Assembly (NCBI GenBank): GCA_030592625.1
Contig: JAUVIY010000024.1
Location: 1 to 16,007 of the forward strand
Origin: Spirochaeta sp.
Lineage (GTDB): Bacteria; Spirochaetota; Spirochaetia; DSM-2461
Reading direction: 5' to 3'
DNA length: 16,007 nt
Part shown: one piece after another, positions 263 to 15,562 of the stretch
Layout: every line of letters starts with the position of its first letter
Numbering within the stretch: the stretch's first letter is position 1
Notes under the pieces: model-generated
The model's database searches: none
What the model was told of the DNA's origin: nothing
What the model saw: the letters and a program-made list of their open reading frames with translations, nothing else
Program-made: the position numbers and the translations under genes

Positions 263-1089
263 GGTATCAAGCTCAGGAGTCCCGGTGAGGACAGATCGAG
301 GCGATAAAGCAGCAGAATGCCGAAAAGAGCCAGCAAGTCGCCGGTTTCAATCAGGGCGCCGTAGACGTCTCCGGTATGTCCCCCCAGTCGCCGGGAGATT
401 CCGGCAGCTATGCAAAGGATGATGCCGGTTACTACCGCGGTGAGTATAAGACCGGCGACTCCGTAGAAGAACGCGGTAATGAGAAGTACTGAGATAATCG
501 CCGAAATGACGGCGGCAGGACTTGCAGAGGCGCGGTTTCTGTCTCCCATGCCCCCGGGTCTGGCCGAGGGGAATAAGCGCATCATCAGAGGTATTATACC
601 ACGAGAAAGCGCTGGGGCTGAAATGAGAGGGTAGAGATCTTCCAAGCTCAGGCTCAGGTGGCCAACCGGACCGGTCGATGACTTCGGAGTTGCGGCATAA
701 CCTTGCAGTGATATCAATTCGGCGATTACCGCTATCTGCAGGGCGCACATCACCAGGAGGGCCAGGGCACCGAAGGAACCCAGGCGGCTGTCGGCCATGA
801 TGGTTAAGCATTTTTCCCGGTCCTTTCCGCCACCCATACCATCGGCCAAATCGGCCAGCCCGTCCATGTGCAGCCCGCCGGTAATGCCGATGCGGACGGC
901 GACGATAATCACCGCCGTTCCCGCCGCACCGAAGATCCATCCTCCCGCCCAGGCGGCAGCGGCGGCGATGATTCCCAGGATGAGGCCGGCCCAGGGATAA
1001 GCGGCCGGAACCCGGGATGCTTTTTTCGGGGGCCGGCCGGGCACCGGGATGATGGACAGGAAGCGCAGGGCCTCGGCAAGGGCTCTCAT
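259..1089 (-). CDS. cobS: Adenosylcobinamide-GDP ribazoletransferase (cobalamin synthase)
   Basis: This 276-residue integral membrane protein joins adenosylcobinamide-GDP to alpha-ribazole (phosphate), the last condensation of cobalamin synthesis. The family's conserved stretch GGLHMDGLADLADG is followed by a conserved aspartate-serine-arginine segment (IMADSRLGSFGAL) that belongs to the metal and substrate site. Near the C-terminus, GHTGDVYGALIE matches the family's GDVYGA-type motif. Several hydrophobic membrane segments alternate with these loops. Length is slightly above the usual 245-260 residues; the extra appears as a loop around residues 130-155. The ATG overlaps the cobT stop (ATGA, 1089-1086) and its own stop overlaps the cobC ATG, so it is the middle gene of a tightly coupled operon. 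Confidence 0.95.
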   Translation of the reverse strand: MRALAEALRFLSIIPVPGRPPKKASRVPAAYPWAGLILGIIAAAAAWAGGWIFGAAGTAVIIVAVRIGITGGLHMDGLADLADGMGGGKDREKCLTIMADSRLGSFGALALLVMCALQIAVIAELISLQGYAATPKSSTGPVGHLSLSLEDLYPLISAPALSRGIIPLMMRLFPSARPGGMGDRNRASASPAAVISAIISVLLITAFFYGVAGLILTAVVTGIILCIAAGISRRLGGHTGDVYGALIETGDLLALFGILLLYRLDLSSPGLLSLIP

Positions 1090-2168
1090 GAGGGGTCCTG
1101 CAGTATTATCAGCTCTTCAGCCAGGGTTCCCATCTCGCTCAGGAGGGCCGCACCGGCCTCCACCAGGGGCATCACCGCGGCGGCGCCTGTACCTTCTCCC
1201 AGTCGGAATCCCAGATCCAGAACAGGTTTGAGTTCCAGCTTCGCCGCCATGGCCCGATGACCCGGCTCAGCGGAGAGGTGACTGAGTACCATCCTCTCCC
1301 TGATTCCCGGGGCCATGGCGAATGCGGTGAGGGCCGCGGCGCCGCTGATGAACCCGTCGATTAGAACCAGGGCTCCATCAGCCGCGACTGCAAGCATGGC
1401 ACCGCACATGGCGGCGATTTCCAATCCTCCCAGTTTTGCCATGACACTAATCGGATCGGCAGTATCCGGCTGGTGGAGCTCGATGGCGTCCTTTATGACA
1501 CGGATCTTCTTCTTTTGACTGGCATCCCCGATGCCGGTACCTCCCCCGGTGACGGTGGCCGAATCCCGGCCGGTGAAAACGGCGGTGAGGGCGGCGGCGG
1601 AAGTCGTATTGCCGATGCCCATCTCGCCGATACCGATAATTTTCGCTCCGGTTTCGTCGATGGCATCCCGGGCGGTTTCGATACCGGCGGCCATAGCCAG
1701 TATGGCCTCATCCCGGCTCATTGCCGCTTCCACCCGGATGTTGCCCGTACCCTTCCTGATACGACGGACGATAAGACCCTCGGGCTCTTCATAAGGGGTG
1801 GCGACCCCGACGTCGATGACTTTAATGACGGCACCGGCTTTCCCGGCCAGAACGTTGATTCCCGCCTTACCGGCACAGAATGCTTTTATCATAACCGCGC
1901 TGACGAAAGGAGGGGAGGCGCTCACCCCTTCGGCGGTGACACCGTGATCCCCGGCATAGATAAGGGACAGTTTTGAATCAGTGACGGGGTGCTCTGTTCC
2001 CTGAATACCGGCCAGTTTGATTCCCAGTTCTTCCAGACGTCCCAGGGACCCCGGGGGTTTGAGCAGGGCGTCCATGCGTTCGGCAGCCGCTTGTAGAGCT
2101 TTACCATCTAAGGGTTTGACTGCGGCTGTGGTATCGTTGATGAGTTTTTCGGCTTCGGTAGCTGTCAT
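1086..2168 (-). CDS. cobT: Nicotinate-nucleotide--dimethylbenzimidazole phosphoribosyltransferase
   Basis: A 360-residue cytosolic enzyme that transfers phosphoribose from nicotinate mononucleotide to the lower-ligand base, giving alpha-ribazole phosphate. Family signatures seen in order are LKPPGSLGRLEELG (residues 36-49), YAGDHGVTAEGVSA, GEMGIGNTTSAAAL and, near the C-terminus, RLGEGTGAA, which holds the catalytic glutamate. Length is normal for CobT. The start is supported by an AGGAG at 2182-2178, nine bases upstream of the ATG. The stop overlaps cobS by four bases. It is now the first cob gene of this block: cobU, usually nearby, lies about 12.8 kb away on the same strand. No clear promoter of its own was seen directly upstream, so read-through from the higBA promoter is possible. 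Confidence 0.96.
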   Translation of the reverse strand: MTATEAEKLINDTTAAVKPLDGKALQAAAERMDALLKPPGSLGRLEELGIKLAGIQGTEHPVTDSKLSLIYAGDHGVTAEGVSASPPFVSAVMIKAFCAGKAGINVLAGKAGAVIKVIDVGVATPYEEPEGLIVRRIRKGTGNIRVEAAMSRDEAILAMAAGIETARDAIDETGAKIIGIGEMGIGNTTSAAALTAVFTGRDSATVTGGGTGIGDASQKKKIRVIKDAIELHQPDTADPISVMAKLGGLEIAAMCGAMLAVAADGALVLIDGFISGAAALTAFAMAPGIRERMVLSHLSAEPGHRAMAAKLELKPVLDLGFRLGEGTGAAAVMPLVEAGAALLSEMGTLAEELIILQDPS

Positions 2169-2358: not shown

Positions 2359-2685
2359 CTAGGCATTTACAGTATTCTGAGCTTGTGGCTGAACAATATG
2401 TGATTTTACCTCTTGATCTATTTTGTCGCCCAGTTTGCTTTTGGCTATTTTCACATTGTATCTCACTTGCAAATTGAGCCAGAACTCAGGTTCAATTCTA
2501 AAATATTTTCCGAGGCGCAATGCTGTATCTGCCGAAATATTCCGTTTCCCGTGAATGATCTGACTGATTCTGTTGGGTGGTACGTTAATATCTTTCGCCA
2601 ATTGTGCCTGTGAAATATTCAAAGGCTCCAGAAACTCTTCAAGAAGAATCTCACCAGGTGTAATTGGTGTCAATTTGTTTTCCAT
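2359..2685 (-). CDS. higA: HigA-type antitoxin, XRE-family repressor
   Basis: A 108-residue protein of the HigA/VapI family. It opens with a typical TPGEILLEEFLEPLNIS stretch, followed by a helix-turn-helix (about residues 24-51, with QLAKDINVPPNRISQIIHG) and the family's WLNLQVRYNVKIAK tail. Known members bind the HigB toxin and repress their own promoter. It starts with ATG at 2685 behind AGGGGG at 2697-2692; that ribosome site overlaps the end of the ancestral higB frame, indicating translational coupling. The gene looks intact although its toxin partner upstream is frameshifted. It is also the gene immediately upstream of cobT on the same strand, with no evident terminator between. Confidence 0.92.
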   Translation of the reverse strand: MENKLTPITPGEILLEEFLEPLNISQAQLAKDINVPPNRISQIIHGKRNISADTALRLGKYFRIEPEFWLNLQVRYNVKIAKSKLGDKIDQEVKSHIVQPQAQNTVNA

Positions 2686-2688
2686 AAC

Positions 2689-2953
2689 TTACCCCCTATG
2701 ATAATCAACGATTTCAACCTGAATGGCATTTCCATCACTCCTGATTATTGATTCTGATGCTATATTGACCTTTTCTATCTCCCTTCAGTTGTTCAAGATG
2801 GTTGCCGGGTGGGACCCTCAGGTTATGTATTGAAACGGCTGCGAGTAAAATTTCCAGTTTAATCCTTGCTTTACGCGAAAATTCCCGAAATCTTCGAACG
2901 TCAATATCATTAAAGAGCCTTTTTGTATCCTTGCATCTAAAAGACTTGATCAC
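2689..2953 (-). pseudogene. higB: HigB/RelE-family toxin, frameshifted by a small internal deletion
   Basis: The frame starts at GTG (2953-2951) with MIKSFRCKDTKRLF, the canonical HigB N-terminus, and runs through RVPPGNHLEQLKGDRKGQYS to SIRINNQ. It then stops prematurely at 2737-2735 after one extra residue. The expected C-terminus continues in another frame: SDGNAIQVEIVDYHRG, ending at TAA 2691-2689. Family members have a WRICFRW-like segment exactly at the junction, and it is absent here. A deletion of about 20 bases therefore explains the shift; the size is inferred from the family pattern. Rejoined, the ancestral protein would be about 94 residues, close to the usual 92. The DYH near the end, part of the ribonuclease active site in HigB, is out of frame, so the toxin should be inactive. 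Confidence 0.88.
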
Positions 2954-2959
2954 ACTGTA

Positions 2960-2988
2960 ATTATATGACGAGTTACGTCAATCGTCAA
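2960..2988 (-). promoter_or_regulatory. higBA promoter with overlapping palindromic operator
   Basis: On the minus strand TTGACG (2988-2983) and a perfect TATAAT (2965-2960) are separated by 17 bases, a near-consensus sigma-70 promoter. The spacer holds a perfect inverted repeat TGACG-AGTTA-CGTCA (2966-2980), placed as expected for autorepression by HigA. Transcription should begin near 2954-2953, at or beside the higB GTG, so the message would be almost leaderless. The promoter faces higB, higA and, with no visible terminator, cobT-cobS-cobC. Confidence 0.75.
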
Positions 2989-3025
2989 TTATTAAACGGT
3001 TTTTTCAGTAATAGCTACCGGACTC

Positions 3026-3177: not shown

Positions 3178-4413
3178 ATGGAATATCAATATCGATTTAT
3201 ATCGGAGAAATTACTGAGATACATTGATCACTTCCCCGTCCTTGTTCTTACGGGGGCAAGGCAGGTGGGAAAATCAACCCTGTTGAAAAAGCTACTGGGA
3301 GACCGTTATGAAATAGTAGTGTTTGACCCGGTAACGGATGTAGAAAACGCCGGAACTGAGCCGGAACTGTTCTTTAAAAATCATCCGGGTCCTCTGATTC
3401 TTGATGAAATTCAATATGCGCCCGAGCTTGTTCCAGTCATAAAGCGTCTGGTTGATGAGAATCATCTACCGGGGAAGTACATCCTGACGGGCTCTCAGCA
3501 ATGGGGGATGATGAAAAATATTTCAGAAAGTTTAGCCGGCCGAGCCGTATTACTCACTCTGATGGGGTTTCATCTTCCGGAATGTGCTGGGGAATTACAT
3601 AAGAAACGATGGCCTGAAAAAATAATGGAAAATGGAATGAACGAACTTCTCCAACCTGATTTTCTGCACCTTCCCTTCTCCCTGTCGGAGCACATATATC
3701 GAGGACAGATGCCGGCAATTCAGAGACTTCCCCTGGAAGTCATTCCCGGCTATCTGAATTCGTACCTTGCAACGTATATTGAGCGAGATGTTCGACTGAT
3801 GGCGGAAATCTCAGATCTTCAACAGTTTGGAAGATTCTTCAGACTCTGCGGGGCCTTAAGCGGACAGGAGATCAATTACAGTCAATTAGGTAGAGATATT
3901 GGAATTACACCTCAGACGTCCAGGCGTTGGCTGGATATCCTCAGGGCTACTTTTCAGTGGATTGAAATCCCCGCCTATTCAGGGAATACCTTAAAAAGAG
4001 TGAGCGGCAAACCCAAAGGATACATGGCCGATACGGGTATGTTGACACAAAGCCTCTATATTTCCACTCCACAAGCCCTGGCGTCCCACCCATCCTGGGG
4101 GAATATCGTTGAATCCCTGGTGGCTACGGATATTCTTAAAACATTCTCTACAATAACATCGCCACCGGCGGTTTATCACTGGCGGAGCCATAGTGGAGCG
4201 GAGGTGGATCTTATCCTCGAACAGAATGGAAAATACTTTCCCATTGAGATTAAATCCACCACTCGACCAAGCAAAAAAGACACTCGAGGAATTAAAGCCT
4301 TCAGAGAGACCTATCCGAATTTAAATATTCAGCCCGGTGTTGTGATCCATCTGGGTGATAAAAACCTGTGGCTGTCGGAAGATGCGGCCGGAGTGTCTTA
4401 TTTCACCCTGTAG
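3178..4413 (+). CDS. AAA-type ATPase with C-terminal DUF4143 domain
   Basis: A 411-residue protein of the common AAA_14/DUF4143 class. The N-terminal ATPase domain has Walker A GARQVGKST (residues 26-34), Walker B LILDE (73-77), a sensor-like ILTGSQQ (102-108) and an arginine in SESLAGR (116-122). The C-terminal half has the DUF4143 pattern with a winged-helix-like stretch, YSQLGRDIGITPQTSRRWLDIL. A PD-(D/E)XK-like motif, AEVDLIL followed by FPIEIKST, suggests a nuclease-like fold. Its cellular role is not established; such genes are frequent in accessory DNA. It stands alone on the plus strand, opposite to higBA, and its stop lies six bases from the cobU relic. Length is normal for the class and no frameshift is seen. 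Confidence 0.9.
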   Translation: MEYQYRFISEKLLRYIDHFPVLVLTGARQVGKSTLLKKLLGDRYEIVVFDPVTDVENAGTEPELFFKNHPGPLILDEIQYAPELVPVIKRLVDENHLPGKYILTGSQQWGMMKNISESLAGRAVLLTLMGFHLPECAGELHKKRWPEKIMENGMNELLQPDFLHLPFSLSEHIYRGQMPAIQRLPLEVIPGYLNSYLATYIERDVRLMAEISDLQQFGRFFRLCGALSGQEINYSQLGRDIGITPQTSRRWLDILRATFQWIEIPAYSGNTLKRVSGKPKGYMADTGMLTQSLYISTPQALASHPSWGNIVESLVATDILKTFSTITSPPAVYHWRSHSGAEVDLILEQNGKYFPIEIKSTTRPSKKDTRGIKAFRETYPNLNIQPGVVIHLGDKNLWLSEDAAGVSYFTL

Positions 4414-4419
4414 ATTATT

Positions 4420-4507
4420 TTATTTCAATTTCTGGGCCAAACCCGAGCTCATCAGATATACCTCATCGGCAGCGGCGGCGAACATCTGGTGTGTGAATCT
4501 GCTGAGG
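4420..4507 (-). pseudogene. cobU: Relic of the 3' end of cobU
   Basis: The last 28 codons and stop of a cobU gene, without the rest. The minus-strand translation LSRFTHQMFAAAADEV then YLMSSGLAQKLK differs from the C-terminus of the intact cobU at 14987-15562 at only three residues. At base level 77 of 88 positions match. Homology starts exactly at the stop codon (4422-4420) and ends abruptly after 4507. Seven of the eleven differences are silent, so the copy derives from a functional cobU that had been diverging under selection. It is in the same orientation as the intact gene and forms a direct repeat with it. Confidence 0.9.
4420..4507. repeat. Left direct repeat of the sugar island (88 bp, partner 14987-15074)
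   Basis: Direct repeat of 88 bp matching 14987-15074 at 77 positions, with a perfect core of 29 bp around 4464-4492. The two copies are the outer limits of about 10.5 kb of sugar-utilisation genes, consistent with attachment-site-like ends or with recombination at a duplicated cobU tail. Confidence 0.85.
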
Positions 4508-4921
4508 CATTCGGCTTGATAGGGATGGATTGATGATGTTCACGGGCCGTGTCTTGCTGATCTACGCGCTAAAGATCTTATCCAAAAGCTCTATAGATGC
4601 CATATCGATCGAGCTTCACTTAAGTGGAAGCCCTCTGGGGATTCCCGCCTCCTATGGTGGCGGTTAAGGAAAAACGATACCGAATCCTCAAATATTTCCT
4701 TGACAGAGTCTTAATGACAGGGTTCATTGTAAATAACATTAAGTAACGACGTCCCTTGTCTGATTGGTCAATGGAGCCGAAAAAGGATAATTCCATAAAC
4801 AAAGGGATCCCATAAGGTGATACTACCAACTGACGAGATCTTCAGAGATCGATTCCTGTTCAGCCCCTGGAGAAGAGTATTGCAGTGATGAGAATCCTTG
4901 AAAAAGGACGGAGGAGTAGTA
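4508..4921. other. Intergenic leader between the cobU relic and the oxidoreductase operon
   Basis: About 410 bases with no supported gene; short open frames here have no coding character I recognise. It should hold the promoter of the downstream operon. A TTGACA lies at 4700-4705, but the hexamer 17 bases further (TTCATT, 4723-4728) is a poor -10. A palindrome sits at 4613-4631 and a small TCCTT-GAAA-AAGGA hairpin at 4895-4908, just before the ribosome site. The cobU homology does not extend past 4507. Confidence 0.5.
4613..4631. repeat. Imperfect palindrome upstream of the oxidoreductase operon
   Basis: The sequence GCTTCACTTAAGTGGAAGC contains a perfect 10-bp palindrome CACTTAAGTG flanked by GCTT and GAAGC, with one extra base on the right side. 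It lies about 290 bases before the oxidoreductase start. It could be a regulator site for one of the two ROK proteins or a chance palindrome. Confidence 0.3.
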
Positions 4922-5941
4922 ATGATACGAATAGCTGTTGTCGGATTGGGATTCATGGGAAAGACCCATATAGGGGCTTACAACCAATTACCCAACGCCA
5001 AAATCACCGCATTGTGTGATAGAGACCCGGATCGGGTTAATCTGACATCCCTTGATGCCGGAGGTAATATTGAGACATCGAGCGGGTCGGTCGACTTCTC
5101 TGATGTCCCGAAATATACGGATTACGATGAGATGCTCGCCAAAGGGGGGTTCGATGCGGTGGATATCACTCTTCCGACGGATGTCCATGCAGCTTTTGCC
5201 ACCAAGGCGCTCAAGGCCGGTTATCATGTTTTTGTAGAAAAGCCCCTTGCCATGGATTATGAATCGGCAATGCTTATAACCGCGGCCGCAGAAGAGAGCG
5301 GAAAGGTTTGTTCGGTTGGTCAGTGCTTGCGATTCTGGCCTTTGTATACCGAGGTTAAGAAGGTTCTGGACAGCGGGGAATACGGGGCGACCCGTCATGC
5401 GGAATTCGGGCGATACTCACCTCCTGCCACGTGGATTGTAGACGGTTGGTCCGAGAACTCTTCCCGCTCGGGGAACGCTTCGCTGGATCTCCATATCCAC
5501 GATGTAGATATAATATTATTCCTCTTCGGCAAGCCCCAAAGCGTACGTTCCGTCGGTGTTCCGGACGGGAATGGCTTTTTTACCCATATATCAACGGTGT
5601 ATCAGTATCCTGAAGTTTCCGTAACATCCACTGGTGGATGGGGTTTCTCCCCCGATTTCCCGTTTAGCATGCGGGCCCTCTATGTTTTGGATAAAGCCAC
5701 TATCGAGATGGATATTTCCAAGGATCACCCTGTTATGGTATTCCCGTACGGAAGAGAACCTTTTCCCCTGGAACTTCCGGAGGGTGACGGTTACCGCAAT
5801 GAAATCATTGATTTTGTGGAGCGGTGCGAAAGTGGAAAAATATCGGAAATAGTTTCGCCCTCGGTGGCTGCCGAATCTGTCCGTCTTACCCGGTTGGAAA
5901 TCCAATCAGCCAGGGAGAATCGTGAAATCGTGATGGATTGA
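4922..5941 (+). CDS. Gfo/Idh/MocA-family NAD(P)-dependent oxidoreductase
   Basis: A 339-residue cytosolic dehydrogenase. The N-terminal Rossmann fold has GLGFMG at residues 8-13, and the hallmark EKPLA motif is at 106-110. A downstream DLHIHDVD (189-196) supplies the conserved histidine and aspartate of the catalytic site. The family oxidises or epimerises sugars, inositols and their derivatives, often through 3-keto intermediates. ATG 4922 is chosen over the upstream TTG at 4898 because GGAGGAG lies seven bases before it and family homology begins at MIRIAVVGLG. It is the first gene of a plus-strand operon and ends seven bases before the ROK regulator. The substrate cannot be read from sequence; the neighbours suggest an amino sugar or its deacylated product. 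Confidence 0.92.
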   Translation: MIRIAVVGLGFMGKTHIGAYNQLPNAKITALCDRDPDRVNLTSLDAGGNIETSSGSVDFSDVPKYTDYDEMLAKGGFDAVDITLPTDVHAAFATKALKAGYHVFVEKPLAMDYESAMLITAAAEESGKVCSVGQCLRFWPLYTEVKKVLDSGEYGATRHAEFGRYSPPATWIVDGWSENSSRSGNASLDLHIHDVDIILFLFGKPQSVRSVGVPDGNGFFTHISTVYQYPEVSVTSTGGWGFSPDFPFSMRALYVLDKATIEMDISKDHPVMVFPYGREPFPLELPEGDGYRNEIIDFVERCESGKISEIVSPSVAAESVRLTRLEIQSARENREIVMD

Positions 5942-5948
5942 ATTCGGA

Positions 5949-7283
5949 ATGCATACGGTACGAATGACCGGGGCGGCCAATGCGAATGTTCAGAATCAAA
6001 TCAACGTATCGCTGATATTCAACTTTCTCAGACATCACGGGGAAACGTATCGGGCCGAGATATCCCGTAAAGTCGGCCTGAGTCCTCCGGCCGTATCTCG
6101 AGCCATTGAGTCTTTGCTTGAGCAAGGATATCTCAGTGAAAGCGGAAACCTCGTCACCAGAAACGGAAAGAAAGTCGCCCGATTAATTGTCAATCCCGAC
6201 AAAGGCTGCGTCATTGCAATCGATTTCCTGAAAGGTCGTTCCAGATTCGGTTGTTTCGATTTTACAGGAGATCTGATCTACCAGACTGTCGGAGATTACT
6301 TCAGTGAAAATGGCGATGTCCTCAAGGCGCTTGTTGAAAAGATCAAACAGTTTATCGGGGAGGCCAGTCTCATCGATAAAAGCAGGCCTCTACCTGAAAT
6401 CAAAGCCATATGCCTCGGTGTTCCCTGTGCAGTTGATACAAAGAGTGGTAAAACAACCGGAGCGTGGTTGTACGATTTCCTGGTTGATCTTAACTTTAAA
6501 ACAGAACTTGAGTCGGTGTTTGACATACCGGTTTTCATTGAGAACGATATCAAGCTTGCAGCGTTTGCCGAAAACCGTCTCGGCAAGGGAATGCAGCATC
6601 ACAATCTGGTTTATATCGATATTAACAAGTATGGGATTGGTTCCGGTATAATCCTGGATGGTCACATCGTCAGAGGTGCACTCGGACTTGCAGGGGAAAT
6701 CGGATACTCGATAATTCCAGGGGTCAAAACAGACAAAAAATATCACCCAATGGGGTATCTGGAGTCCCAGGCATCACTTAAATCCATCGTTGGGAAGGTT
6801 CTCGAGTGCCTTGAAGCCGGAGAGATATTCTCATTAGCCGGATCACCCGGGGATGATCCTGGTACCGACACGAGTTTGACGGCTCGGAAGGTGTTCCAGG
6901 CCGCCGTTGATGGTGACAGCCTATGCCGTCGTGTCATCAATCAGGCCGTCGAGCTACTTATTTCCATTACAACAAACCTCATTCTTGCTGTGAATCCCGA
7001 GATAGTCATTATCGGCGGGGATATCTACGACATGCCCGGTGCTGAAGAACTCTTCCTGGTGCCGTTGAAACAGAAAATGGGGAAAATATTGCCTTTCGAG
7101 GCTCCTATCGTTGAATTCTCTATACTTGGTTCGGACGCATGTATGAGAGGAGCCTCCCTCTTCGGGGTGGAATCCATTTTATCCGGTTTATATCCTTTTA
7201 CAGTAGACTCTCTCAGCTCTTCAGATTCATTAGATAAAGCTAGTAGTAAAATCAACAATCAGGAGAATATTTATGCCTCGTAA
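5949..7283 (+). CDS. ROK-family transcriptional regulator (first of two)
   Basis: A 444-residue ROK regulator. A winged helix-turn-helix (about residues 18-65, with [22 protein letters not shown]) is followed by a ROK sugar-binding domain containing [23 protein letters not shown] and [12 protein letters not shown]. The glycine-rich phosphate loop normally near residue 90 is not recognisable ([12 protein letters not shown]). The cysteine-rich zinc motif usually after AGEIG is replaced by a stretch without cysteines. It is therefore likely a sugar-responsive repressor rather than a kinase, binding its ligand atypically. It sits inside the catabolic operon, seven bases after the oxidoreductase, and overlaps the next gene by 11 bases. 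A second ATG at residue 6 is also possible as start; neither has a strong ribosome site. It is a paralogue of the protein at 9030-10280. Confidence 0.92.
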
Positions 7284-8205
7284 AATGAGCACGATAAACC
7301 CGCAATGGTGGGACTACACAACCTTGGACCCTCAGATTCTGGAGGATGCGGTAAAGCTGACGGCCAAAGATTTGGAACAGTTACAACGGCCGGGTTTCAA
7401 AGTCACTTTCTTCGATTCTATCGAAGAATTCTTCGTGGCTGAGGCCATAGAATACATTCGGGTCTGGCAAGCATCGACTCCGGACGATCCCAGGGGTATC
7501 TGCGGGCCTATCGGACCGACAGAGCAACTTCCATTGGTAGCGAGGATTATTAACGATATGGATATCGACGTTCGCGATGGTTACTTCTGGGGGATGGACG
7601 AATGGTATATTGATGGGAAGGAAGCCTCTGTTGATCATCCTTTAAGTTTTGCCCGGGCAGACCTTGAACTCTGTTTCAATCGTATCAGACCGGAACTGCG
7701 CATGAGTGACGATCATCTCCGTTTTCCTTCAGCCGACGGCTTGGCGGAATACACCTCCAGTTACGACGAGGTTCGTTGCATGGTGATGCAGGGAGGGCAG
7801 GGCGATGTGAAGCATTGGGCCTTCAACGATCCGCCTATGAGGAAAGGAGTCTATGCCGATGTGCCGCCGAGTCCAGAAGAGTATCGGAAACTCTCGACAC
7901 GCATCGTCGATCTGCATCCGATGACATTGATTCAGAACGCCCGGACCTCTTATGCCGGCCGTGTTCACGATGTACCTACTCAGGCATTATCGGTTGGACC
8001 CGTTGAGACGTGGAAATCCGATCGTGTTTCAATTTGGCATCCCGGGACCCATGACAATCCATTTGGTTTACGTCTGACATCCTTGATGATATCCAAAGGT
8101 TTAGCGGATTCAAGCGTACCGATGTCTTTGCTGACGGATCATCCGGATGTTCATTTCAATTTCCTGCGTTCCGCGGTCGGGACAACCGATAGCGAAATGC
8201 ATTAG
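7273..8205 (+). CDS. Divergent NagB-like (glucosamine-6-phosphate deaminase/isomerase superfamily) protein
   Basis: A 310-residue protein whose whole length can be matched by eye to the NagB fold, with an N-terminal extension of about 45 residues. MDE at 108-110 matches the Nag[18 protein letters not shown] at 174-186 aligns without gaps to the Nag[24 protein letters not shown] aligns to VPKYALTVG. Key positions differ: the catalytic Asp141 of NagB is V179, with an aspartate one place earlier; His143 is kept (H181); Glu148 is D186. The phosphate-loop PTGGTP is PIGPTE (79-84), and the GSQK that brings the phosphate-binding lysine is GTHD (258-261). It may isomerise or deaminate an unphosphorylated or differently substituted amino sugar. 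The ATG follows AGGAG by seven bases. PIG-L follows by ten bases; Bacteroidetes are known to fuse these two domains. Confidence 0.8.
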
Positions 8206-8215
8206 AAGGTGCAGT

Positions 8216-8983
8216 ATGGTTGTTTTTGCTATTCACAGTCATCCCGACGATATTGAATTTGTTATAGCCGGCACACTGTTCCTCCTCAAGAGGGCAGGAT
8301 GTGAAATTCATTACATGAATATTGCCAACGGTAGCTGCGGTACTGCTGAATACTCAAGGGAGGACATCATACGAATTCGCCGGGAGGAATCCCTGGCGGC
8401 CTGTCGGTGTATTGGAGCCGTTCATCACGAGAGCGTTTGCGAGGACATGGGTGTGTTCTACAATGACGATCTCATTCGCAAAGTGTCGGCGGCCGTCAGG
8501 AATGTCAATCCGGATATAATTCTCACCGCATCCCCGGAAGATTACATGGAAGACCACATGAACGCCTGCCGGCTGGCATTGGGGGGAGCGTTCGTCAGAG
8601 GAATGGCGAATTATGTATCCGAGCCACCACGTACTCCTGTTGAAAAAGACGTGACAATTTACCATGCGGTTCCCCACGGCCTGCAGGACGGTCTGAGACG
8701 GCCGATTGATTCCGATTTCTACATCGACATCGGCTCGGTGATTGAGAATAAAGTCGAGATGCTGGCCTGCCATGAAAGCCAGAAGAATTGGCTGGATGTC
8801 TCGCAAGGTTTTGATTCCTACTTGACTACCATGAAGGACCTCAATTCTCGTGTGGCCGAAGGGCTTGCCGGTATCGATTACGCAGAAGGTTTCCGGCGAC
8901 ATCTCCACTTCGGTTATTCCCGTGAGGAAGGAAATCCTCTTGTTGATCTCCTCGGTGACTATGTCCATCTTGGGATAAAGTAA
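8216..8983 (+). CDS. PIG-L/LmbE-family zinc deacetylase
   Basis: A 255-residue zinc-dependent N-deacetylase. The metal motif HPDD is at residues 9-12 with a following glutamate (HSHPDDIEF), and the second zinc-ligand motif, EDYMEDH, ends at H114. The family removes acetyl groups from N-acetylglucosamine moieties, for example in GlcNAc-phosphatidylinositol, mycothiol and bacillithiol precursors, or diacetylchitobiose. ATG 8216 is preferred over an in-frame ATG at 8147 because AAGG stands six bases before it, the family begins at this residue, and the upstream start would overlap the NagB-like gene by 59 bases. It is the last gene of the operon that starts with the oxidoreductase. The convergent ROK gene ends 46 bases further on. 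Coupling to a NagB-like protein suggests deacetylation of an N-acetylated sugar as an early step. Confidence 0.92.
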   Translation: MVVFAIHSHPDDIEFVIAGTLFLLKRAGCEIHYMNIANGSCGTAEYSREDIIRIRREESLAACRCIGAVHHESVCEDMGVFYNDDLIRKVSAAVRNVNPDIILTASPEDYMEDHMNACRLALGGAFVRGMANYVSEPPRTPVEKDVTIYHAVPHGLQDGLRRPIDSDFYIDIGSVIENKVEMLACHESQKNWLDVSQGFDSYLTTMKDLNSRVAEGLAGIDYAEGFRRHLHFGYSREEGNPLVDLLGDYVHLGIK

Positions 8984-9029
8984 TATCGAATCGAAATGCA
9001 GAATGAAGTCTTGGTGGCAACTCAATCGC

Positions 9030-10280
9030 TTACTGAGATACTTTCCGATGATAGGGATATTCATTATGCAATATCGAGTCAATCGCCAATGTTGCCGCTC
9101 CCAGTATCCCCGATTCGGAACCCAATGATGAATAGGAAATTTCAGGCGGCGTGAATGGCAAAGACATTGCAAGCCTTTCTTTAATTGGATTCAAGAGGAG
9201 CTCTGTCGCACCCGGCATAGAACAAACATCCCCGCCGATGATGATGGCATCAGGGTTGATGATAATCGCCATATTATGAAGTGCCGTGGATAGATGGCGT
9301 ACCATGGTCGATATCGCCATCAAACAGAGATTATCTCTATTCAGGGCATGTTCAAATATCATGTGGGGTGTGATGGACGATGGGTTGGTATGAAATAAGG
9401 GAGTCAGTGTGGACACAACTCCGCAGGATAACTCATGGAGTATGCTGCCCTTCAACGCCGATAAAGACGCCTTTTTTTCGAGGTGGCCGATTTTCCTTCC
9501 TAGAAAGGCCACGTCATCACTTTCTGTAAGGGAAAATCCGATTTCTCCTGCAAAACCGTTTCCTCGGTATACAGAACCATCCAAAAGAATCCCCGAGCCA
9601 ATTCCGGCACCGATTTCAACGAGTACAAGAGTTTCTTCGGGGTTCCTCTCTCCATACCTCTTTTCACCAAGCGCAGACAGTGAACTGATATTTTCCATGA
9701 ACACCGGAATACCGGAATGATGTTCAAGGACATTCTTAAAATCAACGGATTCGTAATCTTCATAATAAGAAAGTGTCAGTTTACCGGTATTTCGATCGAC
9801 AATGGCCGGGATGCCGAGACAGATCGCTTTGATCTTATCCTTCGTCGTATTGGAAAAATCCGTGAATCCACTAATGCATTTATCGATCAGGTCGTTCAGA
9901 TCTCGTATGACATCACTGGATTCCTCCGGTTTAAATCCCTTTTTCCGGAATTTGATCTGTCCGGAGAAATCCACTACGGCAGCTTCTGTCTGAATACTGA
10001 AGAGATCAACGGCCAGGACGAATCCATATAGTGGATTGACTGTATAAACCAGAGTCCCCTTGCGTGCCGTTCCCATGTCGTTTTTTTGTTTGATGATGAG
10101 ACCCGACTCCCCGAGTGTTTCTACGATCCGGGATACGGCCGGGATACTCAATCCCAAATCCTTTGCGATGCGGGATCGATTCACCGATCCTGAGTTCCTT
10201 ATGTAATTAAAGACTAGCGAGAGGTTAATGTGACTCTGCTGTGATGCATTGACGGCATAATTGATCGACAGCTTTTTCAT
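9030..10280 (-). CDS. ROK-family transcriptional regulator (second of two)
   Basis: A 416-residue ROK regulator, paralogous to the one at 5949-7283. An N-terminal winged helix-turn-helix (about residues 17-64, SRIAKDLGLSIPAVSRIVETL) precedes a ROK domain with IGAGIGSGILLDG and GNGFAGEIGF. The position of the ROK kinase aspartate (END in kinases) reads VFMENIS, so the catalytic aspartate is lost, and no zinc-binding cysteine cluster follows AGEIG. It is therefore a regulator only. It is transcribed divergently from the sugar ABC transporter, which is the usual place for its repressor. It has its own near-consensus promoter, and a 19-bp palindrome lies in its leader. It converges on the PIG-L gene. 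Confidence 0.93.
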   Translation of the reverse strand: MKKLSINYAVNASQQSHINLSLVFNYIRNSGSVNRSRIAKDLGLSIPAVSRIVETLGESGLIIKQKNDMGTARKGTLVYTVNPLYGFVLAVDLFSIQTEAAVVDFSGQIKFRKKGFKPEESSDVIRDLNDLIDKCISGFTDFSNTTKDKIKAICLGIPAIVDRNTGKLTLSYYEDYESVDFKNVLEHHSGIPVFMENISSLSALGEKRYGERNPEETLVLVEIGAGIGSGILLDGSVYRGNGFAGEIGFSLTESDDVAFLGRKIGHLEKKASLSALKGSILHELSCGVVSTLTPLFHTNPSSITPHMIFEHALNRDNLCLMAISTMVRHLSTALHNMAIIINPDAIIIGGDVCSMPGATELLLNPIKERLAMSLPFTPPEISYSSLGSESGILGAATLAIDSILHNEYPYHRKVSQ

Positions 10281-10291
10281 TTCTTTCCTAG

Positions 10292-10310
10292 TGAATCGGT
10301 AGGCGATTCA
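10292..10310. repeat. 19-bp palindrome in the leader of the second ROK gene (candidate operator or hairpin)
   Basis: TGAATCG-GTAGG-CGATTCA is a perfect inverted repeat with seven-base arms, lying 11 bases upstream of the ROK start. It could be an autoregulatory operator or fold in the mRNA next to the ribosome site. No second copy was found in the window. Confidence 0.5.
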
Positions 10311-10351
10311 ATTGCTGGATGCAGCCCTGCTCAGGACTCTACTCTAATACT

Positions 10352-10381
10352 ATTATTATATGAAGTTACTCAAAATGTCAA
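10352..10381 (-). promoter_or_regulatory. Promoter of the second ROK regulator
   Basis: On the minus strand a perfect TTGACA (10381-10376) is followed by TATAAT at 10360-10355 with a short 15-base spacer, or by AATAAT at 10357-10352 with 18 bases. Either gives a good sigma-70 promoter reading toward the ROK gene, with a leader of about 65 bases. Confidence 0.6.
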
Positions 10382-10415
10382 AATAATCATCTTTTACCCG
10401 TAACACACATTTTCC

Positions 10416-10469
10416 TTGACACAAAAGGCCGCTCAGACTAACGTGATATTAGTATAATCTGTTTGTTAG
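10416..10469 (+). promoter_or_regulatory. Candidate promoter/operator region of the sugar ABC transporter operon
   Basis: A TTGACA lies at 10416-10421 and a perfect TATAAT at 10453-10458, but the 31 bases between them are too many for one promoter. The TATAAT is therefore either poorly provided with a -35 or activator-dependent. Around it are repeated half-sites: ACTAACGTGATATTAGT (10437-10453) is an imperfect palindrome with five-base arms, and GTTAG follows at 10465-10469. TTAGT/ACTAA half-sites resemble those of XylR-type ROK repressors, making this a likely target of a ROK regulator. Confidence 0.45.
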
Positions 10470-10555
10470 GGTATCTTGTTTGAATCAGTGGGTACCTCCC
10501 TGGAATTGGTCTTCGGGAGTTACTGATATAAGCATTTCTATGAAGGAGAAGGAAA

Positions 10556-11557
10556 ATGAGAAAAGTCAGCGTCGTATTGATCGTGCTTCTGCTCATCCCG
10601 ATGAGCGTGTTGTGGGCCACCGGCGGTAAAGACAAGGCCGCGGACGATACAATCGTGTTTGGAATTATCCCGAGTTCAATGTCCGATGAATGGAACGGGT
10701 ACAGTGTTGAGAATTTCAAATATGCGGCAGCCAAAAAGGGTGTGGAAGTTGTGGTTCTGGATCCGGAATGGGATGGTGAGAGAGCCCAGAATAATCTGGA
10801 GGATCTGATTACCAGAGGTGTTGACCACGTAGGCGTTTATGTTTACACGCCTGAACAGGCCCAGGATTTCATCAACAGGGCAAACGACGCCGATGTACCG
10901 ATTTCATTCGAGAACACGAAACTGGTCGGTAATATTTCCGGTGATATCGTGGTGAATGTTGCCTTTGAATATTATGACTTCGGCTATGAAGCCGCGAAGT
11001 ATATCAGCCAGACCTACCCCGGAAGCAAGCTGTTCTATGTGAGAGGATTACCTGGTATGGGTATCGTGGAAGAATACATGCGCGGTATTGAGGATGCCAT
11101 CAAAGAGTTCGGCACAATTGAGATGACCATCTACCGGGATACAAGCTGGGATACCGAAACGGCACTCAATGCAACCCAGGATGTCATCGCTTCAGGCGAA
11201 AAGTTTGATGTTATTTTTGCCAATAACGAATCCATGGCCGTTGGCTGCTACAATGCACTTAAAGATGCCGGAATGGATGGGGATATTCCCATTGTTTCCA
11301 CCGGCGGTGGACCCACCGGGGTGCAGATGCTGAAGGACGGGATTATTCAGGCGACCATAGCCGGACCGGTTTCCCTGCAGGGGCTTTATCTTTTCAAGGC
11401 AATGTATCTTTATACTGTTAATGGTATAACACCACCGGAAACTTATATCGAACCACCGGGAGTGCAAGCCATTACATTAGACAATCTGGATGATAATATA
11501 CCATGGAAACCTTCCGATGATCTGATCGAAATGATCGGCGGTCTGGATTCATGGTAG
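10556..11557 (+). CDS. Sugar ABC transporter, periplasmic substrate-binding protein (RbsB-like)
   Basis: A 333-residue periplasmic binding protein of the ribose/galactose type. A signal peptide covers about residues 1-22 (positive MRK, hydrophobic core, cleavage near LWA-TGG). It has no lipobox cysteine, so it should be a soluble periplasmic protein or held by an uncleaved signal. The mature part starts TIVFGIIPSSMSDEWNGYS, the usual first strand and ligand loop of the Peripla_BP_4 fold. The central DVIFANNESMAVG and the VSTGGGPTGVQ stretch match the conserved second lobe. An AAGGAGAAGGAAA ribosome site directly precedes the ATG. It is the first gene of the transporter operon, and a strong stem-loop separates it from the ATPase gene. 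The ligand is unknown; context suggests an N-acetylated amino sugar or its glycoside. Confidence 0.93.
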   Translation: MRKVSVVLIVLLLIPMSVLWATGGKDKAADDTIVFGIIPSSMSDEWNGYSVENFKYAAAKKGVEVVVLDPEWDGERAQNNLEDLITRGVDHVGVYVYTPEQAQDFINRANDADVPISFENTKLVGNISGDIVVNVAFEYYDFGYEAAKYISQTYPGSKLFYVRGLPGMGIVEEYMRGIEDAIKEFGTIEMTIYRDTSWDTETALNATQDVIASGEKFDVIFANNESMAVGCYNALKDAGMDGDIPIVSTGGGPTGVQMLKDGIIQATIAGPVSLQGLYLFKAMYLYTVNGITPPETYIEPPGVQAITLDNLDDNIPWKPSDDLIEMIGGLDSW

Positions 11558-11583
11558 GCTTCAATACTAAAATATAGTTCCGA

Positions 11584-11613
11584 CAACCCCGGTGGCAGCC
11601 GCCACCGGGGTTG
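11584..11613 (+). terminator. Strong intercistronic stem-loop after the binding-protein gene
   Basis: Perfect 13-bp inverted repeat, CAACCCCGGTGGC and GCCACCGGGGTTG, with a four-base AGCC loop, placed 26 bases after the binding-protein stop and 14 bases before the ATPase start. No run of T follows, so it is more likely an mRNA-stabilising or attenuating hairpin that keeps binding-protein message in excess than a full terminator. Confidence 0.75.
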
Positions 11614-11627
11614 AGAGTTATTCTGAA

Positions 11628-13124
11628 ATGAAAGAACCGATCATTCAAACGATAAACATCACAAAGAGTTTTCCCGGCACCATTGCGCTGGCTCAGTTCA
11701 ATTTCGAACTTCTTCCCGGGGAAGTTCACTGTCTGATCGGTGAGAATGGAGCCGGGAAATCTACCTTTATCAAGATATTATCCGGTGTTTATTCGCCTGA
11801 TTCAGGAGAAATCATCATTGATAATAAGCGGTATGACAGCCTGTCCACCCAACTGGCCAGGGGAATAGGTATTCATACTGTATATCAGGATGATGTTCTT
11901 GTTCCTCACATCAGTGTAGCGGAAAATATCTATCTCGGATCGGAAATCATGCGAAAAAGAATTTTCATGAATTATCGAACCGTGTATGAGAATGCAGAGG
12001 AACTTGCCCGACATTACGGTATAGATCTGGATGTTAAAGAGGTTTACGAGAATCTCAATCCGGCAGATCAGCAATTTACCAAGATCCTCAAAACACTGGC
12101 TCAATCACCTAAAATTCTTGTTCTGGATGAACCGACTCAAGTTTTCAGTATTAACGAAACCGACTTGATTCTGAACATCGTTAAGAAAGTTTCTGCAACA
12201 GGTACAGGTGTCGTTTACATTGCTCACGATTTAGATGAAATCATCAAGGTGGCACACCGTGTTACCGTGCTTAGAGATGGGAAGAAGGTTGCAGGTCACG
12301 ATGAAGGAATAAACAAGTTGGATTCAACGCTTCTGGCTAAGGAAATGGTAGGACGTCCGGTGGAGCTATTCTACAAAAAGAAGAAACACACCATCGGTGA
12401 TATCGTGTTTGAAGTCAAGAATTTGAGGCTGGCATCAACCTCAAAGCCAATTGAGTTCTCGGTGAGAAAGGGTGAAATCCTCGGGATAGCAGGATTAAAA
12501 GGTTCGGGACGTTCTGCTATTGCCAGGTCAATCTTTGGAGCCCTCGATCGGTATTCCGGACAGGTTATATATGAAGGGAATGACATTACCCCAAAAAATC
12601 CGATTGAGGCCGTCCGGCATGGACTTGCATATCTCACGGAAGATAAAAAAGCGAACGGTCTGTTTCTCAGTATGCCGGTTGACCAGAATATTACCATTGT
12701 AGGACTGAGTTCCATTCATCGCTCCCTGATCAAATTAAAAAGGGAACAGGATATAGCTGGTAACTTCATCAGCAGAATGAAGATAAAGACTGCCGGTCTC
12801 AACCAGGAAGTGCAATACCTCAGCGGTGGGAATCAACAGAAGGTTGTAATCGCAAAATGGCTTTTCAGAGATGCCAACATTCTCATCGTTGACGAACCAA
12901 CTCATGGAATTGACGTAAACGCAAAAACTGAAGTGTACGAGTTATTCACCGAACTCGCATCAGCGGGAAAATCCATTATAATGATTTCGTCGGAAATGCC
13001 TGAGATTATCTCAATGAGCGATCGTGTAATAGTAATAAGGAATTGCGAGATTTCAAAGGTGTTGTCCGGGGATGACATCACTGAGCACAATATTCTAGCA
13101 GGATATCTAGGGGGAACCGATTAG
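11628..13124 (+). CDS. Sugar ABC transporter, tandem ATP-binding protein (RbsA/MglA-like)
   Basis: A 498-residue cytoplasmic ATPase with two nucleotide-binding domains. Domain 1 has Walker A GENGAGKST (38-46), Q-loop YQDD (86-89), a degenerate signature LNPADQQ (143-149) and Walker B ILVLDEPT (163-170). Domain 2 has GLKGSGRS (289-296, where RbsA proteins also have arginine for lysine), a good signature LSGGNQQ (398-404) and Walker B ILIVDEPT (418-425). It energises import together with the permease downstream. ATG 11628 is chosen because homology starts at MKEPIIQTINITKSF; an in-frame GTG at 11592 lies inside the stem-loop. The ribosome site is weak. The stop overlaps the permease GTG by one base. 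Confidence 0.94.
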   Translation: MKEPIIQTINITKSFPGTIALAQFNFELLPGEVHCLIGENGAGKSTFIKILSGVYSPDSGEIIIDNKRYDSLSTQLARGIGIHTVYQDDVLVPHISVAENIYLGSEIMRKRIFMNYRTVYENAEELARHYGIDLDVKEVYENLNPADQQFTKILKTLAQSPKILVLDEPTQVFSINETDLILNIVKKVSATGTGVVYIAHDLDEIIKVAHRVTVLRDGKKVAGHDEGINKLDSTLLAKEMVGRPVELFYKKKKHTIGDIVFEVKNLRLASTSKPIEFSVRKGEILGIAGLKGSGRSAIARSIFGALDRYSGQVIYEGNDITPKNPIEAVRHGLAYLTEDKKANGLFLSMPVDQNITIVGLSSIHRSLIKLKREQDIAGNFISRMKIKTAGLNQEVQYLSGGNQQKVVIAKWLFRDANILIVDEPTHGIDVNAKTEVYELFTELASAGKSIIMISSEMPEIISMSDRVIVIRNCEISKVLSGDDITEHNILAGYLGGTD

Positions 13125-14101
13125 TGACTGATAATAAAACCAGGATGAAACCATCTGCAGCCAACCCCTTTTTCTCACTGCTCAGTAGTCAAACCGGTTA
13201 CCTGATATTAGTTATAATTGCAGTTTCTGTTATTGCGACAATTCTGAATCCACGTTTCCTGAGTGCGCGCAATATTTTTAATGTCATGCAGCAGATTTCA
13301 GTGCTGGGGATTCTCACCATGTGTATGGCTCTCCTCATGATATCCGGCAATCTTGATATCTCAATCGGAAACATGGCGGGTCTTGTCGGTATGTTATTCA
13401 CCCGTATGGTTCTTTCCGGTCGTCCTCAGGGCATTGCTGTTATAACGGTTATGATTCTTTCAACAGTCCTGGGTCTGATTAACGGACTCATTATATCGAA
13501 AAGCAAAACAACTCCCTTAATTATCACTCTTGGAATGTCGTATGTTTATTATGGTATTTCATTAATCATATCTAATGGCAGACCTCATTCCCTGGGAGGG
13601 CAATTCGAGTTCCTGGGGCGTGCAAAAATTGGACCGGTTCCCATCACAATCATTATTTATATAGTCGTTTTCGCTTTAGCGTACCTGTTCCGAAAGTACA
13701 CAACTTACGGCAGGAGGATAAACGCAATAGGCGGAAATAAAGAGGCTGCTTTTCTCTCAGGAATTAATGTCGATCGCCATATCATTTATCTCTATGGTAT
13801 AAGCGGAATGATCACCGGACTGGCCGGACTGGTCCTGATTTCCCGACTGGGTATGGTTCGAGCCGACAGTGGGAGCAATTATGCACTTCAGGCACTGGCG
13901 GCCGCAATTATTGGCGGGATCACATTTGAGGGCGGAAGAGGCAGTCTTGTAGGCGCGTTTTTAGGTGTTCTTCTCCTGGGCATCATGTACAATGCCATGA
14001 ATATTATTGGAGTTTCCTCTTATATGCAGACCATATTTCTGGGTGCAGTCATTGTGATTGCAACAGTTATCAGTAATATTGGTAAAATAAAAAAACAATG
14101 A
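13124..14101 (+). CDS. Sugar ABC transporter permease (RbsC-like)
   Basis: A 325-residue inner-membrane protein of the BPD_transp_2 family with roughly nine to ten hydrophobic segments. The family motif around ISGNLDISIGNMAGLVGM, near residues 74-91, is typical, as are the cytoplasmic coupling loop GRRINAIGGNKEAAFLSGI and the glycine-rich AIIGGITFEGGRGSL stretch near the C-terminus. It would form the channel with the preceding ATPase. The start is GTG at 13124, overlapping the ATPase TAG by one base, with AGGGGG nine bases upstream (13109-13114), so translation is coupled. Length is normal. Confidence 0.94.
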   Translation: MTDNKTRMKPSAANPFFSLLSSQTGYLILVIIAVSVIATILNPRFLSARNIFNVMQQISVLGILTMCMALLMISGNLDISIGNMAGLVGMLFTRMVLSGRPQGIAVITVMILSTVLGLINGLIISKSKTTPLIITLGMSYVYYGISLIISNGRPHSLGGQFEFLGRAKIGPVPITIIIYIVVFALAYLFRKYTTYGRRINAIGGNKEAAFLSGINVDRHIIYLYGISGMITGLAGLVLISRLGMVRADSGSNYALQALAAAIIGGITFEGGRGSLVGAFLGVLLLGIMYNAMNIIGVSSYMQTIFLGAVIVIATVISNIGKIKKQ

Positions 14102-14162
14102 ACGGATAAAGGCATCCTTTATACGTTTGTATGAGAATTATCTTAAAAACCAAAGGATAATA

Positions 14163-14966
14163 ATGATGAATAACAAAATCGGCGTGGTCACCTCAACCTA
14201 TCCAAATTACAATGCGGATGAAGCCATGGCAGGTATTTCTGCCGCTTCCTTCAAGTATGTTGAACTCGCTTCAGCACCCAGTTATTTTGAACACATCCTG
14301 CCACGGCCGGAAGAAGCTAAAGAATCGGATGTACAGGATCTTTTAAAGAAATGTGCGTCTTATAACCTTGATCTATATTGCATTGCCGGCCATACGCGTC
14401 TTTTAACAGAGAACGGCGTCGCCACTTTCAAGAAGGTACTTGATTATGCGAATGCCGCCGCTGTCCGGTTTGTGACAACCGATGTTGGTGAGATTAAAGT
14501 CGAAGACGATAAGCGGCGATTTTACAAGGATATTGCACAAATTGCAGACTATGCAAAATCAATGAACGTAATTGTGTGTTTAGAAATGCATGGAAGCTGG
14601 TGCAATAATGGTAAAACAGGCGCGGAAATCATTCAAAAAGTCAATCATCCCAACATTCGACTTAACTACGATATTGCAAACGTATCTTTTTATGGTGGAG
14701 TCTGGGCGGTTGATGACATCAAGTACGCCCTTCCTTATATGGACTTCATGCATATAAAAGAAGTCGGCAGTGAGCTGAAAAAATGGGACTTCCCGGCATT
14801 GGGTGAAGGGAAAGTAGATTTCAACAAGATTATGGAATTGATTAAAGACTACGCAGGACCAATCAGCGTCGAAATAGAATTTGATGGTAAGGAACGATCT
14901 CTTCAAGAGATTAATAATGCTGTACAAAAATCCTACAATTTCCTTTCTGAACACGGTTTTGTATAG
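14163..14966 (+). CDS. Sugar phosphate isomerase/epimerase-type TIM barrel (xylose-isomerase-like)
   Basis: A 267-residue protein of the AP endonuclease 2 / xylose-isomerase-like TIM-barrel superfamily. The expected metal ligands are present in order: a glutamate in VCLEMHGSW, an aspartate in RLNYDIANV, a histidine in DFMHIKE and a glutamate in ISVEIEFDG. Such enzymes isomerise or epimerise sugars, keto-sugars or inosose-type compounds and often accompany Gfo/Idh/MocA dehydrogenases. The start is ATG 14163 or 14166: AAAGGA ends five or eight bases before them. An upstream TTG at 14127 is not needed. It is the last gene of the transporter operon, 61 bases after the permease, and its stop is only 20 bases from the convergent cobU stop. 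Confidence 0.9.
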   Translation: MMNNKIGVVTSTYPNYNADEAMAGISAASFKYVELASAPSYFEHILPRPEEAKESDVQDLLKKCASYNLDLYCIAGHTRLLTENGVATFKKVLDYANAAAVRFVTTDVGEIKVEDDKRRFYKDIAQIADYAKSMNVIVCLEMHGSWCNNGKTGAEIIQKVNHPNIRLNYDIANVSFYGGVWAVDDIKYALPYMDFMHIKEVGSELKKWDFPALGEGKVDFNKIMELIKDYAGPISVEIEFDGKERSLQEINNAVQKSYNFLSEHGFV

Positions 14967-14986
14967 GGAAATAGTATGTAAGGATC

Positions 14987-15074
14987 TTATTTCAATTTTT
15001 GCGCCAGCCCCGCGCTCATCAGATACACTTCATCGGCAGCGGCGGCGAACATCTGGTGGGTGAGGCCGCTGAGG
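14987..15074. repeat. Right direct repeat of the sugar island (inside the cobU 3' end)
   Basis: The final 88 bases of intact cobU, matching 4420-4507 at 77 positions in the same orientation. Homology begins exactly at the stop codon in both copies; bases on the island side of the stop are unrelated. Confidence 0.85.
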
Positions 15075-15562
15075 TCCTGGAAGATGCGGCCCAGGGGCCA
15101 GGGGGATATGAGTCCGGTTTCCACCTGATTGGACACCATCAGGGTTTCCCGAGAGCCTTTCGGCGCCGCCTCTTCCCAGTTCAGGACGGCCTCGAGCAGG
15201 CGGCGCCCTTCTTTCTCACCGAGGGACAGGGCTTCTTCACGGTTGGGGGTGTCGCCGAAGGGCGCCAGCAGATTGGTGAGCCAGAGGGTAATGCAGTCGA
15301 AGAGGACCGTGGACGTGGAATCTCCTGAGAGGGCGCCAGAGGTCATCGTTACAAAAAATCCGGCGGGATTCTCAGGTTCCTCAACGGTAATCCAGGAAGA
15401 GGGACGGTCGGCCTTATGGCGTCGGATACGATCTTTCATTTCATCATCCCCGGCCCGGGCGGTGGCCAGATAGGTGACGGTTCCGACAGATTCACGTTCG
15501 GCCGCAAGATGGGCGGCGAATGAGCTTTTTCCGCTTTTGACTCCGCCGAGAATGAGTATCAT
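14987..15562 (-). CDS. cobU: Adenosylcobinamide kinase / adenosylcobinamide-phosphate guanylyltransferase
   Basis: A 191-residue bifunctional enzyme that phosphorylates adenosylcobinamide and then activates it with GTP, feeding the CobS reaction. The P-loop GGVKSGKS is at residues 6-13. RIRRHKADRPSSW contains H49, matching the guanylylated histidine of Salmonella CobU. FDCITLWLTNLL, a NQVETG motif and a C-terminal AAADEVYLM complete the family pattern. ATG 15562 is preferred over the upstream ATG at 15676 because AAAAGGA lies seven bases before it and the protein family starts here. Its final 88 bases are duplicated as a relic at 4420-4507. It now stands alone, about 12.8 kb from cobTSC on the same strand, and is divergent from the unknown gene at 15611. 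Confidence 0.95.
   Translation of the reverse strand: MILILGGVKSGKSSFAAHLAAERESVGTVTYLATARAGDDEMKDRIRRHKADRPSSWITVEEPENPAGFFVTMTSGALSGDSTSTVLFDCITLWLTNLLAPFGDTPNREEALSLGEKEGRRLLEAVLNWEEAAPKGSRETLMVSNQVETGLISPWPLGRIFQDLSGLTHQMFAAAADEVYLMSAGLAQKLK

Follow-up and report, generated by a model that had tools for sequence, protein, structure and literature searches.

How did a block of sugar genes come to stand between cobU and cobT of an uncultured spirochaete, with a copy of the end of cobU at either side? The question is raised by a window of 16,007 nucleotides (nt), the whole stretch of DNA analyzed here, which is one whole contig (JAUVIY010000024.1) of a draft genome of Spirochaeta sp. (GCA_030592625.1, here G000; 438 contigs, 73% complete, 3.3% contamination). 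A previous sequence-only reading had taken the repeated gene end for the trace of an integration that regenerates its target gene, with recombination with a related cobU locus as the alternative. We conclude that the insertion of the block, with a displaced gene tail, into a variable slot is real, and that integrase-free recombination explains it best. The features on which the argument turns are as follows.

14987-15562, minus strand: intact cobU, 191 amino acids (PF02283, E 2e-43); its ATG start matches relatives, and the open frame runs upstream to 15676
14984-15074, minus strand: right repeat copy, the 3' tail of intact cobU
4417-4507, minus strand: left repeat copy, a displaced cobU tail (the relic), with its inner end inside the gene, 88 bases from the cobU stop

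The direct repeat held up as described. Its copies are identical at 79 of 91 bases (77 of 88 over the originally reported 4420-4507 and 14987-15074), and it scored 111 bits, whereas in 100 shuffles of the window that preserved dinucleotides the best direct repeat never exceeded 38.3 bits. It comprises the last 28 sense codons of cobU plus the stop, and the relic keeps the frame and the stop codon and is free of internal stops. The two copies have only short exact stretches in common. Relic and intact tail differ by 11 changes in 84 bases, with seven codons changed silently and three with a changed amino acid (7/10 silent). When the intact tail was mutated at random (three transition biases, 20,000 trials each), neutral decay gave a mean of 2.2-2.6 silent codons, and the observed split was reached in 0.09-0.32% of trials (P 0.0009-0.0032). 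Since the divergence is silent-biased, most of it arose with both tails functional, which argues against duplication of the target, or of the local region, followed by decay. By this test the two anchor copies appear to stem from two different functional lineages, as expected of a donor and a recipient copy. Among the relic's changed residues, one (F) is present in two cobU proteins (P0281 and P0282), and the other two fall at positions that are G and A in all 42 tails lining up (P0278 does not line up), as would be expected after loss of function. Among 40 cobU loci, most of them from other phyla and the window's own genome not among them, a cobU tail repeat was seen only on a contig (L118) of the sister species G004. 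A suggestion that the intact tail is a recent import, drawn from its last 147 bases differing less between G000 and G004 than the rest of cobU (P 0.05), was dropped as too weak; the comparison also contains an artefact from the joining of two G004 contigs.

The other border of the slot and the genes left of the relic are:

1086-2168, minus strand: cobT; homologues beside cobU are 62-90% identical in G004, G008, G007, and G005, and 59% in G003
2359-2685, minus strand: HigA-type antitoxin (TIGR02607, above cut-off)
3178-4413, plus strand: AAA_14/DUF4143 ATPase (PF13635, PF13173), convergent with the relic

Congeners in which cobU was found are all metagenome-assembled genomes. Their cobU-cobT gap is near-empty in three cases (~150 bases in G007, 58 in G005, and <20 in G003). 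In G008 it holds GNAT-like and molybdopterin-oxidoreductase-like genes (names read from translations rather than from a family search), and in G004 it spans ~3.7 kb with a HigA homologue, a protein without a Pfam match, and a different AAA_14/DUF4143 ATPase. The contig of G006 stops at cobU, and G001 and G002 gave no cobU match. The sequence-only reading had proposed that relatives be searched for empty sites and for other cargo, and both were found. With sites near-empty in some congeners and occupied by different genes in others, the gap is a variable slot; conserved flanks with differing cassettes, or none, are the pattern by which minimal mobile elements and integrase-free hotspots are recognized. 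In 1-kb windows, G+C content was 39-51% from ~2 to 15 kb; it was higher over cobS-cobT (58-62%) and in the final kilobase, which contains cobU (58%). Because this low-G+C region is wider than the repeat-bounded block, the variable stretch also takes in the two genes to the left of the relic, for HigA and the ATPase.

Within the slot, different AAA_14/DUF4143 ATPases lie in the gaps of G000 (3178-4413) and G004 (L038, 4490-5812), and this family may often be carried in slots of this kind. A toxin partner of HigA was not seen as an open frame beside the antitoxin (window 2686-2989; L038 7835-8134) in open-reading-frame lists of at least 80 amino acids for the window and at least 70 for G004; the region beside the HigA gene differs between the two species by gaps of ~20 and ~24 nt. 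In G003, close to the 3' side of cobT (L043, 566-1045), there is a near-tandem repeat of 252 nt, 83% identical.

All the sugar genes lie between the two tail copies, as previously claimed, along with a stretch devoid of listed genes. With dS (synonymous substitutions per synonymous site) given relative to G004, the cargo consists of:

4508-4897, no strand: 390 bases without a listed gene, between the relic and the first sugar gene
4898-5941, plus strand: Gfo/Idh/MocA oxidoreductase (PF01408), module B; dS 1.29
5949-7283, plus strand: ROK1, ROK-family regulator (PF00480), module B; no orthologue in the G004 block, where the only match (36%, in L070) is to ROK2
7273-8205, plus strand: glucosamine-6-phosphate deaminase-like protein, a weak assignment (best solved structure 2ri0, E 0.018; no Pfam or NCBIfam match), module B; dS 2.25
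8219-8983, plus strand: PIG-L family deacetylase (PF02585, on a longer frame from 8147), module B; dS 1.43
9030-10280, minus strand: ROK2, ROK-family regulator (PF00480), module A; dS 0.49
10556-11557, plus strand: sugar-binding protein (PF13407), module A; dS 0.42
11592-13124, plus strand: sugar ABC transporter ATPase (PF00005 twice), module A; dS 0.48
13124-14101, plus strand: sugar ABC transporter permease (PF02653), module A; dS 0.51
14127-14966, plus strand: xylose-isomerase-like TIM barrel protein (PF01261), module A; dS 0.58

The same cargo recurs in G004, on another contig and at another gene. All five genes of module A are present there (5,958 aligned bases, 87% identical), followed by the Gfo/Idh, deaminase-like, and PIG-L genes at 76-77%. 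This block has an alcohol-dehydrogenase-like gene (PF08240) on one side and, on the other, a permease gene of the AEC type (PF03547), whose 3' end faces the block; a copy of the permease tail (73 nt, 88% identical) stands on the dehydrogenase side. In G008, the permease and dehydrogenase genes adjoin directly, so G008 was taken as the empty site, and a G006 contig that carries the dehydrogenase and the permease tail is consistent with this; in G000, other genes follow the permease gene. A third tail copy (102 nt, 98% identical to the window's cobU) lies in the cobU-cobT gap of G004 beside the HigA homologue, with its 3' part missing or rearranged; since the G004 contig ends inside cobU, an assembly break lies near it. 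A truncated end of the anchor gene stands on the far side of the cargo, the arrangement by which single-crossover and homology-facilitated illegitimate events are recognized. The inner ends of the copies vary, lying 88 bases from the cobU stop in G000, ~164 in G004's cobU copy, and ~70 in the AEC gene. The binding protein was found in two of 26 family genomes at E 1e-60 (G000 and G004) and, at E 1e-80, in one of 392 phylum genomes (G000 itself), a sample from a larger group with only the best few candidates per genome scored.

Two further candidates were rejected. Two G006 contigs end in the same 123-nt AEC tail, which may reflect strain variation or an assembly branch and was not counted as a duplication. 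A supposed cobU remnant at the TIM-Gfo junction of G004 matched the G004 relic with a score of 26, reached by one of 300 shuffles among nine comparisons, and its match to the window's cobU was chance-like (281/300). Variation also extends to the region 3' of the AEC permease gene (L093, 7183-13349; L089; L090), where G000 has an iron-sulphur protein gene and a URO-D/permease/ABC operon. G004 also holds a dispersed repeat of ~130-160 nt with three predicted hairpins and copies 78-87% identical (L176 6691-6854, L178 6381-6560, L185 3641-3800, L186 1161-1345), which looks like a miniature inverted-repeat transposable element.

The island is not one unit. Module A diverged from G004 by dS 0.42-0.58, much as core genes do (0.32-0.51 for cobT, cobS, higA, and the AEC permease gene), and module B far more, so that by synonymous divergence the island is composite. 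Module A was apparently present in a common ancestor and has since moved in one lineage or more, whereas the same measure indicates a separate history for module B. The order of the two modules is swapped between G000 and G004. We considered this as a circular permutation that would prove a circle, and dropped it, since B is far more diverged than A and the two are not one permuted unit. Protein searches found the binding protein's relatives (86%) and those of Gfo/Idh (75%) on contigs that share a length of 9,279 bases; if this is one contig, the same imbalance holds in that relative.

To gauge how common such repeats are, loci were compared with themselves at E 1e-6 in G000 (206 kb, 27 loci), G004 (144 kb, 23 loci), the family member G011 (240 kb, 12 loci), and five other congeners (95 kb). 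Direct repeats appeared at the three places with tail copies. G000 also gave two short pairs 423 nt apart and a near-tandem repeat of 43 nt, and G004 gave two long repeats, 67 and 77% identical; G011 added two repeats and G003 one. Since the loci were picked partly because of the finding, this is not an unbiased survey.

The explanation we favor, at somewhat better than even confidence, treats the cobU-cobT gap as a recombination slot in this Spirochaeta-like genus. On this view, the last ~90 bases of cobU served as the anchor by which ordinary homologous recombination, with no integrase, brought in the sugar block. A related lineage would have supplied the DNA, a trimmed cobU tail with adjoining sugar genes. 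In the most likely form, the fragment would have been ligated into a circle, with a proposed joint at 4507/4508, and integrated by one crossover within the tail, giving the order intact cobU, cargo, ligation joint, truncated tail copy, and old downstream genes. Alternatively, a linear one-sided event (homology-facilitated illegitimate recombination) would leave a similar product. Circularization, the crossover, the donor, and the identity of the native tail we infer; the tail tree and the stretch of local identity are too short to show a crossover in the flanking genes. A ComEC-family gene in all nine genus genomes makes DNA uptake plausible and proves nothing.

Several points weigh against this explanation. 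A single event does not account for both the exchanged order of the modules and their unequal divergence; several are needed. The AEC tails of G004, with four silent and three changing codons, gave P 0.07-0.09 in the same decay test, which is not significant. Relative to G004, dS was 0.68 for the relic, 0.17 for the intact tail, and 0.22 for the cobU body; a native relic should resemble the body, so the value would fit a relic of foreign origin better than a native one. A tree of the 84 tail bases accepted both a relic beside G000 and a relic outside G000 plus G004, and the search for a donor locus found none, with none of 43 cobU proteins combining the relic's three changed residues. Tails of 73-91 bases at 87-88% identity are short for RecA-type exchange. 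Finally, the same block lying twice beside a tail copy could reflect a more specific process.

One rival account is site-specific integration at the cobU 3' end, recognized by an integrase, of an element that brought a substitute cobU tail, with the integrase gene lost or acting in trans; the block would then be a CIME-like remnant. A direct repeat derived from a gene's 3' end that leaves the target whole is indeed what integrase islands show, near-empty sites in relatives agree with it, and PF00589 proteins occur in eight of nine genus genomes, many in closely spaced pairs. However, no integrase was found among the window proteins scanned, in line with the earlier reading, and G000 gave no match to PF00589 or PF00239; since G000 is 73% complete and housekeeping recombinases are absent too, this negative is weak. 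Nor is there a single attachment core, with module A at cobU in G000 and at the unrelated AEC gene in G004, although this test is not clean because the modules differ in history, and the ends of the repeats vary in depth. Together, the missing recombinase matches, two unrelated anchor genes, and differing tail depths do not support an integrase-made attachment site, and we regard this account as unlikely. The earlier claim of integration at a gene end is therefore supported as to insertion and not as to an integrase, and the alternative that it offered, recombination with a related cobU locus, is the better fit. We see little chance that the contig is a chimera of two strains misjoined near the relic, so that the repeat exists in no one chromosome: G000 is a draft of many contigs, and contigs of G006 and G004 do break at gene tails, but the distance to G004 is about that between species for cobT/cobS at the left end (dS 0.32-0.51), for cobU at the right end (0.22), and for module A (0.42-0.58) alike, and G004, assembled separately, repeats this anatomy at a different gene within a single contig.

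Stepwise accretion would have the sugar genes already beside cobU and a foreign fragment of cobU tail and ATPase joined at their far side. Just six bases lie between the end of the ATPase gene and the relic's stop codon, a search of 26 family genomes gave no homologue of this ATPase with more than 39% identity, and the relic is more distant from G004 than the intact tail is, all of which agree. Yet among the genomes searched no relative has sugar genes beside cobU without the relic, or cobU beside this ATPase, and 84 bases do not fix the relic's place, so this too seems decidedly improbable. More improbable still is that the cobU region was duplicated in place in this lineage, and that decay and an insertion of the sugar genes between the two copies came afterwards. 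A truncated in-frame tail would be expected on this account as well, and the best tail tree puts the relic, weakly, beside the G000 tail. Against it, the silent-site bias rejects plain neutral decay, no other cobU remnant between the copies was reported, and the AEC tail copy in G004 would go unexplained. We entertain as a long shot that an integrase-free process in the genus moves metabolic operons preferentially to the 3' ends of host genes, copying ~70-165 tail bases and keeping the gene whole; with a variable target gene, it would be self-sparing and not tied to one attachment site.

The window has no tRNA, and no Rfam match at E up to 1, including in 4508-4897. A GC-rich motif of up to 56 nt with short inverted repeats lies in that stretch (4615-4670), and recurs whole or partly at five further places in G000 (contigs C36, C431, C290, C435, and C88), with 81-96% identity over 26-56 nt.

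A narrow literature search found no description of this locus. The displaced-gene-tail footprint, known from laboratory single-crossover events and toxin arrays, is seen here for ordinary catabolic genes in uncultured spirochaetes. If this is general, integrase-free acquisition could be recognized in draft genomes by truncated 3'-end copies whose divergence is biased to silent sites, and not every 3'-end direct repeat should be taken for an attachment site.

The comparisons with known systems below draw on excerpts of the cited works. In E. coli conjugation, incoming DNA often lost part of its homologous end, was ligated into a circle, and entered by a single crossover, producing partial gene-end duplications (PMC3240628); these were found in 56 of 60 clones by polymerase chain reaction, measured 109-950 bp in the 14 sequenced, and there were four true illegitimate events. 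As here, cargo lies between a whole gene and a truncated end copy, of 73-91 nt (more in the third case) in our data, but those were laboratory plasmid constructs, whereas ours is a natural case with a diverged donor, known from sequence alone. Displaced effector 3' ends and orphan immunity genes in Vibrio type VI secretion clusters, as well as orphan Rhs 3' regions, are described in a work whose authors propose homology-facilitated illegitimate recombination (PMC5361080). There too a new tail with cargo displaces the old 3' end downstream; however, those are toxin-immunity modules at polymorphic toxin genes, while here the cargo serves sugar metabolism and the anchor is the cobalamin gene cobU. 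Neisseria minimal mobile elements (PMC3082526) likewise have differing whole-gene cassettes between two conserved genes across relatives, although we compared species rather than strains, and displaced tails are not in the definition as excerpted. Hotspots without recognizable mobile elements (PMC5635113) are similar in being variable slots between core genes with no integrase seen, but are attributed to a double crossover at both flanking core genes, which leaves no tail copy. The earlier remark that cobU is not a commonly cited target needs a caveat, as an excerpted review of E. coli islands lists it as an island site in seven strains. In Pseudomonas stutzeri, the nitrogen-fixation island at cobS-gshP (PMC4174501) is also a large cargo beside a cobalamin gene, without integrase or transposase and with some flanking repeats, but in that account the repeats are intergenic and no gene tail is copied.

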